Positions 10,457-16,995 of a stretch of 40,149 nt of DNA are shown piece after piece. The notes under the pieces are model-generated. The model saw nothing but the letters and a program-made list of their open reading frames with translations, was not told where the DNA came from and did not search any database. Location: the NCBI GenBank assembly GCA_018823905.1, contig JAHJHL010000044.1, positions 1-40,149 on the forward strand. Reading direction: 5' to 3'. The stretch comes from Alphaproteobacteria bacterium. GTDB lineage: Bacteria; Pseudomonadota; Alphaproteobacteria; Sphingomonadales; Sphingomonadaceae. Position numbers and translations under genes: made by a program. How positions within the stretch are numbered: position 1 is the first letter of the stretch; the number at the start of each line of letters is the position of its first letter.

Positions 10457-11662
10457 TCAGGCCGGAATCTGGTTGAAGGGAATACCCTTGTCGGGGCGAT
10501 GATCCTGCGGCAGGCCGAGCACCTTTTCTGCGATGGTGTTGAGCAGGGTCTCGTCCGAACCCCCGGCGATGCGCCCGGTCGGGGCGTTGATCCAACTCGA
10601 CGCCCAATTCTCCTTTTGCGAGGCATGTTCGTCGAAGGCAAAGCCGTCGGTGCCTTGCAGGTCGATCGCGAGTTCGGACAGCTTCTGGCGTGAGCGCACC
10701 GCGACCAGCTTGTTGAGCGATCCTTCGGCGCCGGGGATCATTCCCGCCTGCATCATCAGGCGCGCGCGGACGTTGATCGAATCGAGCCCCGACCGCATCG
10801 CATGGTTGCGCGCGATCTGGTGGCGAATGCGGCCATCCTCGATCGCGGGCTTGCCATTGAGTAGCGTATTTTTGGCCAGATCGACGAACAGGTCGAGGTG
10901 CGGACCGAAGCCCGCGCTGTCGGTGGCGACATAGCGCTCGATCATCAACGTCGTGATGGCGACGGCAAACCCGCCGCCAACGGGCGACATGCGGTGGTCG
11001 TCGCTGATCTTCACATCGTCGAAGAAGACTTCGTTGACGTGGCTGTCACCGCCCGCAAGCTTGATCGGGCGGACGGTGACCCCCGGCGCCTTCATATCGA
11101 CCCAGAAATAGGTCAGCCCTTTGTGCTTGGGGACGGTCGGATCGGTGCGGACGACGATGACGCCATAGTCGCTATAATGCGCCCAGCTGGTCCATACTTT
11201 CTGGCCGTTGATCTTCCACCCGTTGCCGTCGGGTTCGGCCTTGGTGCGCAGGCCCGCGAGGTCGGAGCCGCCTGAGGGTTCGGAGAACAGCTGGCACCAG
11301 ATTTCTTCGCCTTGCAGCGCCTTGAGCACGCGCTCCTTGACGAAGTCCCGGTCGCTGCCGAACTGCATCAGCACCGGGACCGGCATGCCGAGCGAGATGC
11401 CGAAATAGAAATTGGGGAAGCCGTGCTTCATTTCTTCGGCGTCGAAGGTGACCTTTTCGAGATGGGTCAGCCCCTGACCGCCATATTCGGTCGGCCAGTT
11501 GATCCCCGCAAAGCCCGCGTCGAATTTCGCCTTTTGGTAGCGGCGACCGAGCGCGAGATCGTCGGCCTCGGCGAGCCCCTTGCGCGCCTCCCGCCCATAA
11601 GTCGGCGCCATCGATTCAAGCCACGCCGCCGCTTTGGCGCGATAGGTTTCCAGATCGCTCAT
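10457..11662 (-). CDS. Acyl-CoA dehydrogenase (second gene of operon)
   Basis: This 401-residue flavoprotein contains WCQLFSEPSGGSDLAGL and INGQKVWTSWAHYSD from the FAD/acyl-binding middle domain, and GGSDETLLNTIAEKVLGLP at the C-terminus. The ATG at 11662 overlaps the stop of the preceding dehydrogenase by ATGA, so the two are probably co-translated and may form a heteromer. The C-terminal GGSDE motif resembles the branch acting on bulky or polycyclic acyl-CoAs in actinobacterial steroid catabolism, but this is family-level inference. It donates electrons to ETF. The following SDR gene begins 13 bases after its stop. Confidence 0.9.
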   Translation of the reverse strand: MSDLETYRAKAAAWLESMAPTYGREARKGLAEADDLALGRRYQKAKFDAGFAGINWPTEYGGQGLTHLEKVTFDAEEMKHGFPNFYFGISLGMPVPVLMQFGSDRDFVKERVLKALQGEEIWCQLFSEPSGGSDLAGLRTKAEPDGNGWKINGQKVWTSWAHYSDYGVIVVRTDPTVPKHKGLTYFWVDMKAPGVTVRPIKLAGGDSHVNEVFFDDVKISDDHRMSPVGGGFAVAITTLMIERYVATDSAGFGPHLDLFVDLAKNTLLNGKPAIEDGRIRHQIARNHAMRSGLDSINVRARLMMQAGMIPGAEGSLNKLVAVRSRQKLSELAIDLQGTDGFAFDEHASQKENWASSWINAPTGRIAGGSDETLLNTIAEKVLGLPQDHRPDKGIPFNQIPA

Positions 11663-12753
11663 GCCGCTTCTTCTGCCAGTCGGTCGACGAGGATATCTTC
11701 CCAGAACAGGCTGCTGCCCTGTTCGATCGCGAGGCTGCGCGCGCGGCGCATATGAAGGTGGAGCCCAAGATCCCAGGTCACGCCGATGCCGCCGTGGATC
11801 TGCACACAATCACGCGCCGCGGCGTCATAGGCCTCGGTCGCCGACAGCCGCGCCGCGGCGGCGGCAGTGATGAAATCGTCGGCACCCTCGCGCGAGGCTG
11901 CGTGGATGCAGTTGGCGCGCGCCAGTTCGGCCAGTCCATAAAGCTCCGCGATGCGGTGCTTCACAGACTGGAAGGCACCGATCGGCTGGCCGAAAGCGCG
12001 GCGGGTCAGTGCGTAGTCGCGCGCGATTTCCATCAGCACCTCGGCGCCGCCGGTCTGCTCATGCGCCGTGACGACCGCCTGGAGGGCCAGGATGTGGAGG
12101 GCCGCATCGCGGGCTGCGGTTCCGACCACCAATGTTTCAGCGGGCGCGCCGACAAAGCTCAGATTGGCGACGCAGCGGCTGTTGTCGAAACTCTGCAACG
12201 GGGTGCGCTCGACGTCGGTCAGGTCGACGAGCGCCAGCACCGGCATCCCGAAACCATTGGCCAGCACGATCGCGACATCGCCCGCGAGTCCGCCGGAAAC
12301 ACCGCGCGCTATACCGCTCAGTCGGTCGTCGGTGAACGTCACGTCCGGCTGTGCCGGTAGCGTGTCGGGACCAGCGGCAAAAGCAATCGCGCCGATGCTT
12401 TCGCCGGACGCCAGTGCGGGTAGCCAGCGCGCCTTTTGCGCATCGGACCCGTAAAGCTCGATCGTCTTTGCGGCGCCAAAGCCCGACGTCAGAAAGGGCG
12501 CACCGCTGAGTGACCGGCCCGCCTGATGCGCGATCAGCCCGAGTTCGATCAGGCCGAGACCCAGCCCGTCATGCGCTTCGGGAAGCGCCAGCGCGGTCCA
12601 GCCCTGTTCCTTTGCCGTGTCCCAGAAAGGGCGATGATATTCGCCGACTGATTCGAGCAGCGGCAGCAACGCCTCGGTGCTGGTACGTGCTTCAAGAACG
12701 CGCCGCGATTCGGTTGCGATCGCCTGTTGGCCTTCATCATAGAGGATGGTCAT
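11659..12753 (-). CDS. Acyl-CoA dehydrogenase (first gene of operon, partner subunit)
   Basis: This 364-residue member has an N-terminal helical domain (TILYDEGQQAIATESRRVL), a weakly conserved middle domain without the usual SE-GSD signature, and a C-terminal domain with ALTRRAFGQPIGAFQSVKH and QIHGGIGVTWDLGLHLHM. Members with a degenerate middle domain often serve as the beta partner in two-gene dehydrogenases. The 4-base overlap with the next gene supports that reading. It starts the operon and faces the flavoprotein gene at 12886 across a 132-base region holding a palindrome. The Shine-Dalgarno sequence is weak or distant. Confidence 0.88.
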   Translation of the reverse strand: MTILYDEGQQAIATESRRVLEARTSTEALLPLLESVGEYHRPFWDTAKEQGWTALALPEAHDGLGLGLIELGLIAHQAGRSLSGAPFLTSGFGAAKTIELYGSDAQKARWLPALASGESIGAIAFAAGPDTLPAQPDVTFTDDRLSGIARGVSGGLAGDVAIVLANGFGMPVLALVDLTDVERTPLQSFDNSRCVANLSFVGAPAETLVVGTAARDAALHILALQAVVTAHEQTGGAEVLMEIARDYALTRRAFGQPIGAFQSVKHRIAELYGLAELARANCIHAASREGADDFITAAAAARLSATEAYDAAARDCVQIHGGIGVTWDLGLHLHMRRARSLAIEQGSSLFWEDILVDRLAEEAA

Positions 12754-12885: not shown

Positions 12886-13866
12886 ATGGCTTTCAAGACA
12901 CGTATCACCGAAATGCTCGGGATCGCACATCCGATCGTGCAGGGCGGGATGCAGAGCGTCGGCTACGCCGAACTCGCCAGCGCGGTTTCGAATGCCGGCG
13001 GGCTTGGCATCATCACCGCGCTGACCCAGCCGAGCCCTGAGGCGCTCAGCGCCGAGATCGAGCGTTGCCGCGCGATGACCGACAAGCCGTTCGGTGTGAA
13101 CATGACCGTTTTCCCGACGATCAACGCCCCCGACTACAAGGCCTATGCGCAGGCTATCATCGACGGCGGGGTCAAGATCGTCGAGACCGCGGGAACGCCC
13201 GCGGTGCGCGAGATATGGGAAATGCTGAAACCGCATGGCATCACGATCCTGCACAAATGCACCGCGGTACGCCACGCCTTGTCGGCCGAGCGCGCGGGCT
13301 GCGACATCATCTCGATCGACGGCTTTGAATGCGCAGGGCATCCGGGCGAGGATGATATTCCGGGGCTGATCCTGATCCCGGCGGCGGCCGACAAGGTGAA
13401 AATTCCGATGCTCGCGTCGGGCGGTTTCGGTGACGGCCGCGGGCTTGTCGCCGCGCTCGCGCTCGGTGCCGAAGGGATCAACATGGGTACGCGCTTCTGC
13501 GCGACCGTCGAGGCGCCGATCCACGACAATGTGAAGCAGGCCTATGTCGATAACGATGAACGCGGATCCTATCTGATCTTTCGCAGCCTCAAGAACACCG
13601 CGCGCGTCGGAAAGAGCGCGGTCAGCGAAGAGGTTGTGCGCCGTCTGGCGCAGCCCGACGCCACCTTTGCGGATGTCGCGGAACTGGTGAACGGCAAGGC
13701 GGGGCGCGAACTGCTCGAGACCGGCGACTTGTCGAAGGGCGTGTTCTGGGCCGGGATGGTGCAGGGATTGATCCACGATATTCCAACCTGCAAGCAGCTG
13801 ATCGATCGCATCATCGCCGAGGCGGATGCGATCGTCGATCAGCGGCTCGCGTCTTTCCGGCGATAG
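12886..13866 (+). CDS. Nitronate monooxygenase-like FMN flavoprotein
   Basis: This 326-residue TIM-barrel flavoprotein has IAHPIVQGGM near the N-terminus, NAGGLGIITALTQ, DKPFGVNMTV, ECAGHPGEDD (the position of the His used by 2-nitropropane dioxygenases) and ASGGFGDGRG plus GAEGINMGTRF for FMN phosphate binding. A GGGGAGGG Shine-Dalgarno sequence precedes the ATG. Relatives beside acyl-CoA dehydrogenases include mycobacterial IpdC, which acts in steroid ring breakdown, so a role on an unusual acyl-CoA is at least as likely as nitronate oxidation. It is divergent from the dehydrogenase operon and shares the palindromic region with it. Confidence 0.87.
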   Translation: MAFKTRITEMLGIAHPIVQGGMQSVGYAELASAVSNAGGLGIITALTQPSPEALSAEIERCRAMTDKPFGVNMTVFPTINAPDYKAYAQAIIDGGVKIVETAGTPAVREIWEMLKPHGITILHKCTAVRHALSAERAGCDIISIDGFECAGHPGEDDIPGLILIPAAADKVKIPMLASGGFGDGRGLVAALALGAEGINMGTRFCATVEAPIHDNVKQAYVDNDERGSYLIFRSLKNTARVGKSAVSEEVVRRLAQPDATFADVAELVNGKAGRELLETGDLSKGVFWAGMVQGLIHDIPTCKQLIDRIIAEADAIVDQRLASFRR

Positions 13867-13985
13867 GCTGCGTCGTGCCGACACGCTGGCGCGGCGCGTG
13901 CGCTTTCGATATGATCCGATTCTTCGCATTTTGATCAGTTCGCTGCCCACGGCGTTATCGCCCGCCGGTGCGCCAAGGGGGATGT

Positions 13986-15077
13986 TTGAGCGTCATCGAA
14001 TATAAGGGTTTTGGCGGCGTTGCGTTGCCCGCCGACGTGCTGGGCGATGACAACGACCCCGCGGTGCTGCTGATCCCCGACATCGGGCAGGCGCGCGGTG
14101 CCTGGCGCGCGGTGGCCGATGGACTGGTGCTGTCGGGGCGACGTGTGGTGAATCTCGATTTGCGTCCTGACGGTGGCGCTGACCAGCTAGCAGCGCATAT
14201 CGAGGATTTGCGCCTCGTCCTTGCCCAAATGGGGTCGCGCCCCGTCGTTGTTGCGGCGCGACGCGGCGGCTGGATCGCGACGCGCGCGCTGGCAACCGAC
14301 GGCATATTGCTCGCGGGCGGGCTGGTGCTGGTCGATATGCCCGAGGATGCCGACGCCATCGCGAACGGCATTGCGGGGCGACAGGCGCTGCCGACGCTGG
14401 TGGTGCGCGGCGGCTTTGCGCCCGCGCAATGCAGCCCTGCGAGCGATGCCTTTCACGCCGCGCTGCCGGTCGGCGAAAGTGCCGACATCGATGAGGCTGA
14501 TCTGGCGCTCGAAGCGGACCGGACCGAAGCCTTGCTCGGTCAGTTGCTCGAATTTCTCGAGCGCCGCCAGCCGCGCGAGGCGACCGAGTTTCAGGCGGGA
14601 TCGGACCCGCGAACGCTGCGCGACGCGATGGGCTGCTTTGCCACCGGGGTGACGATCGTCACGGCGCTGGATGCGGCAGGGGTGCCGGTGGGGCTGACCG
14701 CGAACAGCTTCACGTCAGTGTCGCTCGATCCGCCGCTCTTGCTCGTCTGCATCGCCAATTCGGCGGGAACCGCGCCTGCGCTGCGCGAGGCAGGGCATTT
14801 TGGGGTCAATGTGCTGCAAATCGGTCAGCAACCGGCATCGAACCGTTTCGCGACGCGCGGCGAGGACCGTTTCGCCAACCTGCCGTGGGCGCCGGGGCAG
14901 ACGGGAGTGCCGCTGCTCGGCAGCTCGCTGGTGTCGTTCGAATGCCAGCGCGAATCGCTCCATGAAGCAGGCGATCATTTCATCCTGGTCGGCCGCGTCG
15001 TCCGCGCGCAGTTCGAACCACACCGTGACCCGCTGCTCTATTTCCGCGGCAAATATCGGCGGCTGCATTTCGCTTAG
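13986..15077 (+). CDS. Fusion: degenerate alpha/beta-hydrolase domain plus flavin reductase domain
   Basis: This protein has about 363 residues. Residues 1 to about 195 look like an alpha/beta-hydrolase (DNDPAVLLIPDIGQARGAW, then a VVNLDLRPDG strand). At the nucleophile elbow VVVAARRGGW replaces VGHSMGGW, so Arg92 stands where Ser should be. No convincing terminal catalytic His is visible either. From about residue 205 a flavin reductase/HpaC-like domain begins: RDAMGCFATGVTIVTA, GLTANSFTSVSLDPPLLLVC, then HFILVGRVV and LLYFRGKYRRL. The reductase half should reduce flavin with NAD(P)H for a partner oxygenase. The first half may only bind or scaffold. A TTG start at 13986 with AAGGGGG just upstream fits best. 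A GTG at 13968 is the alternative. Confidence 0.78.
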   Translation: MSVIEYKGFGGVALPADVLGDDNDPAVLLIPDIGQARGAWRAVADGLVLSGRRVVNLDLRPDGGADQLAAHIEDLRLVLAQMGSRPVVVAARRGGWIATRALATDGILLAGGLVLVDMPEDADAIANGIAGRQALPTLVVRGGFAPAQCSPASDAFHAALPVGESADIDEADLALEADRTEALLGQLLEFLERRQPREATEFQAGSDPRTLRDAMGCFATGVTIVTALDAAGVPVGLTANSFTSVSLDPPLLLVCIANSAGTAPALREAGHFGVNVLQIGQQPASNRFATRGEDRFANLPWAPGQTGVPLLGSSLVSFECQRESLHEAGDHFILVGRVVRAQFEPHRDPLLYFRGKYRRLHFA

Positions 15078-15104
15078 GGACGTGGGGTCAGACCGGACGG
15101 TCGA

Positions 15105-15195
15105 TGGCGGAGCGGGTGGGATTCGAACCCACGATAGGCTTTTGACCTATACTCACTTTCCAGGCGAGCGCCTTCGACCACTCGGCCACCGCTCC
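15105..15195 (-). tRNA. tRNA-Ser (anticodon GGA)
   Basis: The minus strand folds as a class II tRNA. The acceptor stem GGAGCGG pairs with CCGCTCC, discriminator G and an encoded CCA follow. The D arm contains GGCCGAGTGGTCGAAGGC, the anticodon loop is CTGGAAA, and a long variable arm precedes the GGTTCGAATCC T arm. The long variable arm and GGA anticodon identify serine (UCC/UCU codons). Confidence 0.96.
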
Positions 15196-15268
15196 GCATG
15201 CTTGGAACGCGCGCCCTAATCGCTGGGCGGGGCTTTCGCAAGTCGGTTGAGCATGGCAGACAGGCGGC

Positions 15269-16267
15269 ATGAAACATCTGCTTCTGGCCGCCGCTGCCGC
15301 TTCGCTAGCCCTCCCGGTTACCGCGCAGGAGCCTGCGCCGATCCCGTCGCCCGGCGAGATCGCGGCGGCGGCGCCCGCCAGCGACTGGATTGCGATCGCG
15401 CCGTCCGACCTGCTGGTGATGGACCTGTCGCCCGACGCCACGGGCAAGGCGCGCCGCGTCGTGATCCAGCTGATGCCCGCACCGTTCAGCCAGGGGTGGA
15501 TCGGCAATATCCGCAAGCTCGCCGCCGCGCATTGGTGGGATGGGACGAGCATCAACCGGGTGCAGGACAATTATGTCGTCCAATGGGGCGATGCGACCGA
15601 GAAAAAGGCGCTGCCGCGGGGTTTGGCGGTGGTACCGGAGAGCGGCTACCAAGTTTCGGAACCCGCCCAATCAATGCCAATCATTGAAACCTTCTATCGC
15701 AACAGGGAACGGTTGAAGGCGCTCGTTAACCAGCAGCGTAGCGGAAAACCCCTCGTTATTTACGCGCCGGACATGCGGACGAAGATCGATCCATATTCTG
15801 ATTTTCAGGCGTTCGCTGGCGGATGGCCGTTTGCCGGTAGTAACGGTGTTTGGCCCGTGCACTGCTACGGTATGGTCGGCGTCGGGCGCAACCTGTCGCC
15901 CGATACCGGCAGTGGCGCGGAACTGTACACCGTCATCGGACACGCTCCGCGTCACCTCGACCAGAATATCGCCCTCGTTGGCCGCGTGATTAGCGGTATC
16001 GAGCATCTCTCGAGCCTGCCGCGCGGCACGGGGGCGCTGGGATTTTATGAAACCGAGGCGGAGCGCGTGCCGATCGCGTCGATCCGCATTGCCAGCGAAT
16101 TGCCCGTCGCCGATCAGCCGCGCTTCGAATATTTGTCGACCGAAAGCGACAGCTTCGCGCGCTACGCCGACGCACGCGCCAATCGCCGCGATCCTTTCTT
16201 CATCAAGCCTGCTGGCGGCGCCGACATCTGCAATATTCCGGTGCCGGTGCGGCCCGTCACGAAATGA
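15269..16267 (+). CDS. Exported cyclophilin-like peptidylprolyl isomerase, divergent active site
   Basis: This 332-residue protein has a clear signal peptide (MKHLLLAAAAASLALPVTAQ), so it acts in the periplasm or at the membrane. The cyclophilin core is recognisable from HWWDGTSINRV to YVVQWGD, and GRVISGIEHL is the conserved late strand. Against human CypA the catalytic Arg55 is kept (Arg97), but His54 becomes Asn96, Trp121 becomes His229 and His126 becomes Ile234. A long insert separates the two halves. Proline isomerase activity may therefore be weak, with a chaperone-like role possible. It lies just downstream of tRNA-Ser on the other strand. Confidence 0.82.
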   Translation: MKHLLLAAAAASLALPVTAQEPAPIPSPGEIAAAAPASDWIAIAPSDLLVMDLSPDATGKARRVVIQLMPAPFSQGWIGNIRKLAAAHWWDGTSINRVQDNYVVQWGDATEKKALPRGLAVVPESGYQVSEPAQSMPIIETFYRNRERLKALVNQQRSGKPLVIYAPDMRTKIDPYSDFQAFAGGWPFAGSNGVWPVHCYGMVGVGRNLSPDTGSGAELYTVIGHAPRHLDQNIALVGRVISGIEHLSSLPRGTGALGFYETEAERVPIASIRIASELPVADQPRFEYLSTESDSFARYADARANRRDPFFIKPAGGADICNIPVPVRPVTK

Positions 16268-16920: not shown

Positions 16921-16995
16921 GCTGCTGTAGCTCAGTGGTAGAGCGCGTCATTGGTAATGACGAGGTCGGGAGTTCAATCCTCCCCAGCAGCACCA
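16921..16995 (+). tRNA. tRNA-Thr (anticodon GGT)
   Basis: The acceptor GCTGCTG pairs with CAGCAGC, followed by A and an encoded CCA. The D arm has GCTCAGTGGTAGAGC. The anticodon stem CGTCA/TGACG encloses TTGGTAA with anticodon GGT, and the T arm has GGGAGTTCAATCCTCCC. It reads ACC/ACU codons. Total length is 75 bases including CCA. Confidence 0.97.

Follow-up and report, generated by a model that had tools for sequence, protein, structure and literature searches.

Flavin reductases with an appended non-redox domain are already known as a kind, and a version with an alpha/beta-hydrolase domain is a variant of it. In HPAH C1, the reductase of Acinetobacter p-hydroxyphenylacetate 3-hydroxylase, the MarR domain is autoinhibitory, and 4-HPA relieves the inhibition in such a way that flavin reduction becomes at least 30-fold better, according to a review (PMC10816480). 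Another review (PMC6165268) reports the view that fused proteins of the StyA2B/IndA2B type work chiefly as reductases. No description of an alpha/beta-hydrolase–flavin reductase fusion was found in the open-access literature searched. The pairing of such reductases with their monooxygenases is a live question nearby: Caenibius tardaugens, also a sphingomonad, has a luciferase-like progesterone monooxygenase whose reductase partner is unassigned and a genome with one flavin reductase (PMC12239570).

Here we describe a fusion of this kind from a 40,149-nucleotide stretch of sphingomonad DNA, referred to as the window. It is expected to supply the flavin-dependent monooxygenases of many sphingopyxids. 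Its living relatives span many states from an intact catalytic triad to none, with a shift of conservation from pocket to body, so that the origin of a pseudo-enzyme domain could be traced at the bench.

Results

The fusion gene and its reductase half

The fusion gene is a single uninterrupted frame on the forward strand (13986–15077) that encodes 363 amino acids from a TTG start. The motif AAGGGGG (13975–13981, forward strand) is its likely ribosome-binding site, as judged from the sequence, and no promoter- or terminator-like site was detected within 13700–15300, where shuffled sequences give 0.2 and 1.4. A tRNA-Ser(GGA) gene lies immediately downstream on the reverse strand (15105–15195), and a tRNA-Thr(GGT) gene is found further on in the window (16921–16995, forward strand). 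The protein consists of an N-terminal alpha/beta-hydrolase-fold domain (13986–14597, residues 1–204, with a modelled fold over residues 1–197) and a PF01613 flavin reductase domain (14628–15065, residues 215–360), both on the forward strand; its C-terminus is the end of the reductase domain, with no MarR-like domain after it.

The reductase half scored 155.4 bits against PF01613 in a profile search (curated cut-off 27), and residues T238, N240, S241, F242, S244, S246, G329, D330 and H331 are invariant in 53 sequences, so the second half is a normal flavin reductase domain, as the sequence-only reading had claimed. These positions cover the flavin-site and GDH motifs of PF01613. The best NCBIfam matches were HsaB (4.3e-47), HPAH reductase (8.2e-44) and FerA (4.4e-43), all matches falling below their curated cut-offs (160.3 versus 230 bits for HsaB, NF045630). 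The protein is probably an NADH-dependent flavin reductase, belongs to the HpaC/HsaB/FerA class, and has an N-terminal pseudo-hydrolase domain. The idea of a Rut protein (RutD-RutF) was rejected, RutF scoring 98.8 versus 254.75 bits. In the source genome, whose assembly is 95.6% complete, the fusion is the one PF01613 match in all.

Distribution of the fusion

Of 80 genomes from the genus, the source genome among them, 75 have the N-domain and PF01613 together in one stop-free frame. Short forms only are present in 45 of these, one long form in 24, and two or three copies in six (G018, G019, G031, G056, G067 and G068); five of these six have both short and long forms. In 46 of the 80 genomes, the source genome included, every PF01613 match is a copy of the fusion. 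The nearest named loci are from Sphingopyxis, and related fusions are found in Novosphingobium, Sphingorhabdus, Hyphomonas, Kordiimonadaceae and Paraglaciecola, and on plasmids of Agrobacterium vitis and Cupriavidus necator. The fusion proposed from the sequence is therefore real, and the possibility of an assembly error is refuted by this recurrence across the genus and in other genera; that annotation or assembly merged two genes, as an artefact would imply, has a negligible probability when relatives in Agrobacterium, Cupriavidus, Paraglaciecola and Kordiimonas have it too.

Across the family, 89 genomes from 88 genera were sampled, and the N-domain adjoins PF01613 in only five of these genera, its own included, at a threshold (N-domain model E ≤ 1e-20) that more distant fusions could escape. 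Such reductases can therefore generally do without the domain.

A PcaD/RutD-like hydrolase–flavin reductase fusion of 599 amino acids, with an extra C-terminal stretch, was found in Mesorhizobium (L090:8221–10020), adjoining genes for a luciferase-like monooxygenase and an aldehyde dehydrogenase. In Falsirhodobacter the same neighbourhood (L089:8255–9507) carries a stand-alone hydrolase gene, with a reductase match after it.

Loss of the active site and of the cap

The structure model and a Foldseek search (best 1000 chains) support an alpha/beta-hydrolase fold for the N-domain. In the model, Arg92 (codon 14259–14261, forward strand) sits between strand 87–91 and helix 94–101, at the place of the nucleophile, the old His position after beta8 is Leu173, and the acid position after beta7 is Pro, although Asp117 after beta6 is present. 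The first description of this domain, as a hydrolase fold that lacks both its nucleophile and its catalytic His, is thus borne out, and the acid is missing too. The cap is reduced to one five-residue helix in the short-form model, while the long-form model has three cap helices.

The triad positions were tabulated in an alignment of 299 distinct relatives, unfused hydrolases and fused proteins. The fused rows, a non-random set of the matches listed plus the loci, comprised 130 short (N-part of up to 225 residues) and 137 long forms, one protein without PF01613 (P0212) having been dropped from 138 long rows, or 268 fused, to leave 267. All the short rows are of the Sphingopyxis type except L046 (58% identity). 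Among the unfused relatives, Ser is present in 31 of 31, His in 30 and an Asp or Glu acid in 18. By contrast, none of the 130 short forms among the matches listed has Ser, Cys or Asp at the elbow, none has the catalytic His, and none has Asp or Glu at the acid position (a gap in two). Their elbow is occupied by Arg in 68, Gly in 54, Ala in five and other residues in three, so a role for Arg92 does not hold: Arg is one of several fillers, and its variability rules it out as a functional residue. The long forms listed (n = 137) show Thr (82), Ser (38), Asn (6) or other residues (11) at the elbow; His is kept in 67 and Ser together with His in 23, a count by which catalysis may survive in some of the fused relatives. 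An intact Ser-Asp-His triad was found in a single one of the 267 fused proteins among the matches listed, the long form P0161, and P0156 has Ser-Glu-His.

Probable decay of the hydrolase domain

A tree of 83 N-domains was built with the triad columns masked; it is a quick tree, in which 34 of the 80 inner branches are drawn open. The fewest changes on it were 10 for Ser/other, 7 for His/other and 19 for acid/other. All 12 unfused rows of the tree have Ser-Asp/Glu-His, which makes a loss that followed fusion the simple account, and most likely, judging by these residue patterns, the ancestor was active and the site decayed after fusion, although the change counts alone give no direction. The fused rows do not lie on one side of a branch (two label changes), and L088, P0185, P0186 and P0191 may represent a second fusion event.

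A uniform order of loss, from the acid to the nucleophile to the His, was rejected, as the states mix among relatives: among the long forms listed, Ser is kept but His lost in 15, His is accompanied by Thr or Asn in 42, and 46 have Thr or Asn and no His. Unfused relatives are 262–325 amino acids long, and the N-parts of the matches listed measure 228–302 residues (median 248) in long fused forms and 179–224 (median 204) in short ones. In the history that we propose, a Ser-Asp-His hydrolase would have been fused ahead of a flavin reductase, and the nucleophile, the acid and the His would then have been lost in different lines; almost the whole cap would have disappeared as well in Sphingopyxis, with the body of the fold staying under purifying selection.

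Selection and shift of conservation

Pairwise dN/dS values were calculated with a Nei-Gojobori-type count (own script, dS up to 1.2). In the short clade, with 497 pairs for each half, the median was 0.171 for the N-domain (range 0.05–0.31) and 0.054 for the reductase. The corresponding values were 0.303 and 0.127 in the Novosphingobium type, and 0.064 and 0.026 in the Sphingorhabdus type. The N-domain is under purifying selection, about three times looser than that on the reductase half.

Conservation was then compared between the catalytic face, defined by our own choice as the 38 loop positions that follow the C-terminal strand ends in the model, and the rest of the domain, with p values from shuffling of positions; the locus alignment excludes L069 (stops) and L077 (truncated at a contig end). 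In the unfused relatives, presumably active enzymes, conservation is concentrated on the face, with a mean entropy of 0.70 bits against 1.54 for the rest (14 rows, p < 0.0002). The difference is small in fused proteins with the His (1.22 and 1.37 bits, 59 rows, p 0.42), absent in those without it (1.25 and 1.26 bits, 51 rows, p 0.96), and reversed in the short form (1.30 against 0.76 bits, 67 rows, p 0.0006).

The short-form positions kept in at least 97% of the matches listed lie within K7–F9, S50–V54, E73–P86 and D178–A204, apart from Asp117 and Asp172, both on the face and also kept in at least 97% of the short forms listed. Asp172 adjoins the old His position, and its conservation counts against a wholly decayed face. 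Taken overall, conservation in the body and the C-terminal helix points to an interface and not to a ligand in the old pocket.

Gene neighbourhood

Upstream of the fusion and on the same strand lies a nitronate monooxygenase (NMO)/FabK-like gene (12886–13866, forward strand), whose product scores 223.6 bits to FabK (cut-off 453.1). It is present in 31 of the 34 short-type loci scored (L002–L033, L059 and L073), and two of the three loci without it have less than 300 bases of upstream sequence. Beyond it, on the opposite strand, two acyl-CoA dehydrogenases, an SDR and a thiolase are encoded in most Sphingopyxis loci that are long enough; in the window, the small (11659–12753) and large (10457–11659) acyl-CoA dehydrogenase partners, both on the reverse strand, are taken as neighbourhood only. 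In four Sphingopyxis loci (L012, L014, L016 and L020) the acyl-CoA dehydrogenase gene is separated from the NMO gene by an extra acyl-CoA dehydrogenase-like gene, of 393–398 amino acids, which is missing from the window. The acyl-CoA catabolism genes noted at first sight are thus a neighbourhood conserved in the genus and a link by position only; they run on the opposite strand, and only the NMO-like gene runs the same way as the fusion.

Other types of the fusion have other neighbours, all named here by reading their sequences: thiolase-like, DUF35-like and CaiB-like genes in the Novosphingobium type, amidohydrolase-like genes in the Kordiimonas type, and, in many loci of the Sphingorhabdus type (L051–L068), a thioesterase-like gene before the fusion and HPPD-like and VOC-like genes after it, suggesting by their likeness a connection with the degradation of tyrosine or homogentisate.

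Search for a partner monooxygenase

No HsaA-like or luciferase-like gene was detected by tblastn (E ≤ 1e-4, four query proteins) in 80 related loci, with flanks of up to 8 kb and 50 of the loci spanning at least 17 kb, so that the partner is not fixed by the neighbourhood. This recheck by tblastn was used because open-frame calling had overlooked the fusion in several loci, owing to antisense frames; in six control loci, the partner queries recover such genes at 21–32% identity. On an Agrobacterium vitis plasmid, a distant fusion is clustered with an HsaA-like oxygenase (NF045629, 1e-72, 245 versus 450 bits) and with FAH-family and VOC genes. For oxygenases of the two classes searched, the proposed check for a co-occurring gene thus finds none in the 80 loci and one in the A. 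vitis cluster.

At the genome level, no HsaA-type oxygenase was found in the source genome at E ≤ 1e-30 in its 95.6% complete assembly, nor any tryptophan halogenase, and the best two of its 15 PF08028 matches look, by reading, like ordinary acyl-CoA dehydrogenases. HsaA-like genes are present in 34 of the 80 genus genomes: six of the 46 with the fusion only, 23 of the 29 with the fusion and other reductases, and all five without the fusion. In one genome (G026), roughly 1 kb separates an HsaA-like gene from a reductase that is not fused. An MsnO8-type luciferase-like gene occurs as a single copy, away from the fusion, in 76 of the 80 genomes. Three genomes lack both this gene and the fusion (G058, 99% complete at 2.3 Mb, and the incomplete G045 and G075), and the co-absence gave a Fisher p of 0.0005 (74/1/2/3), uncorrected for kinship. 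The MsnO8 gene is a lead only as a partner.

Discussion

Role of the N-terminal domain

The N-domain is probably a pseudo-hydrolase that decayed after fusion and was kept as a scaffold, docking or allosteric part of the reductase. The shift of conservation from the face to the body favours, in the sequences compared, such a role over that of binding a ligand in the old pocket. In the mechanism that we envisage, the C-terminal half would reduce FMN or FAD with NADH, the reduced flavin would reach a monooxygenase by diffusion or docking, and the N-terminal body would stabilise, dock or regulate the reductase, as the appended MarR domain of HPAH C1 does. The fusion would serve whichever flavin-dependent monooxygenase needs a PF01613 reductase in the source genome, because it is the only one found there. 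A bolder version, in which the hydrolase domain became a docking or allosteric subunit and the fusion a genus-wide hub of reduced flavin, for MsnO8 for example, is put forward tentatively.

The main competitor, less likely than the reading just given, is that the domain is a mere relic for folding, solubility or dimer stabilisation on which the reductase leans, with neither regulation nor docking. The concentration of conservation in the fold body, the C-terminal helix and the linker, with a less conserved catalytic face, would be expected of such an appendage, and it fits as well with the lack of a nearby partner gene of the two classes tested and of the domain in most sampled genera of the family; a role in folding or stability would also agree with an N-domain whose rate of evolution is about threefold that of the reductase. 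On the other hand, a dN/dS of 0.17 and the retention at 97% or more of R52, R53, E73, D74, R76, R85, D178 and R179 suggest a specific interface, although a contact internal to the protein would give the same pattern of charged residues.

Two further readings fare worse. It is unlikely that the pseudo-hydrolase binds a ligand and so keeps an acyl-CoA, or the substrate of a partner oxygenase, close to the reduced flavin. The adjoining acyl-CoA dehydrogenase, thiolase, CaiB and crotonase genes, several of them also in Sphingopyxis relatives, speak for it, and HPAH C1 is a precedent for the sensing of a substrate by an appended domain, but in the short form the rest of the domain is better conserved than the face loops, little of the cap is left, Arg92 varies, and elsewhere the neighbours differ (HPPD-, amidohydrolase-, thiolase-like/DUF35 and ring-cleavage-like genes). 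Hence, of the binding or docking module proposed in the sequence-only reading, the non-catalytic module survives as the best reading, in view of the fusion, the missing triad and the selection, and the holding of acyl-CoA is left unsupported by the loops and the cap. Catalysis by another mechanism that relies on residues other than the classical triad is more improbable still. Alpha/beta-hydrolase folds with other chemistry exist, and the retained Asp117 and Asp172 could be read in this way, but the face loops of the short form vary, and no other Ser, Cys, Thr, His or acidic residue in them reaches 97% conservation. A non-catalytic scaffold, docking or allosteric domain is thus our preferred reading.

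Comparison with known systems

HsaB, FerA and HPAH reductase are the closest NCBIfam families to the reductase half, below their cut-offs, and HsaB, FerA, HpaC and RutF are single-domain proteins as judged from profile lengths of 154–186, whereas the HPAH reductase profile has 309 positions. On the hydrolase side, the nearest unfused relatives found for the N-domain (among P0189–P0205, with source names that include pimeloyl-ACP methyl ester carboxylesterase and non-heme chloroperoxidase) show 29–38% identity to the query L072, keep Ser-Asp/Glu-His in the 12 tabled, and have 264–306 amino acids against the 204 residues of the fusion domain. The 599-amino-acid protein of Mesorhizobium pWSM1497 has the same domain order as the fusion described here and adjoins a luciferase-like monooxygenase, but its N-terminal half is PcaD/RutD-like, with Ser and His, and it has the extra C-terminal stretch; it probably arose from a separate fusion event.

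The PF01613 core is shared with HPAH C1 (5zc2, 5zyr) and with SMa0793 (3rh7), at 48–50% identity over about 140 residues, and the 321-residue chain of SMa0793 extends beyond the PF01613 match. HPAH C1 has, like the fusion, a second domain attached. In HPAH C1 this domain stands at the C-terminus, is MarR-like and autoinhibitory, and binds 4-HPA (PMC10816480), whereas that of the fusion is N-terminal with an alpha/beta-hydrolase fold. By analogy, the autoinhibitory MarR-like domain of HPAH C1 would be the best comparison for the N-domain described here.
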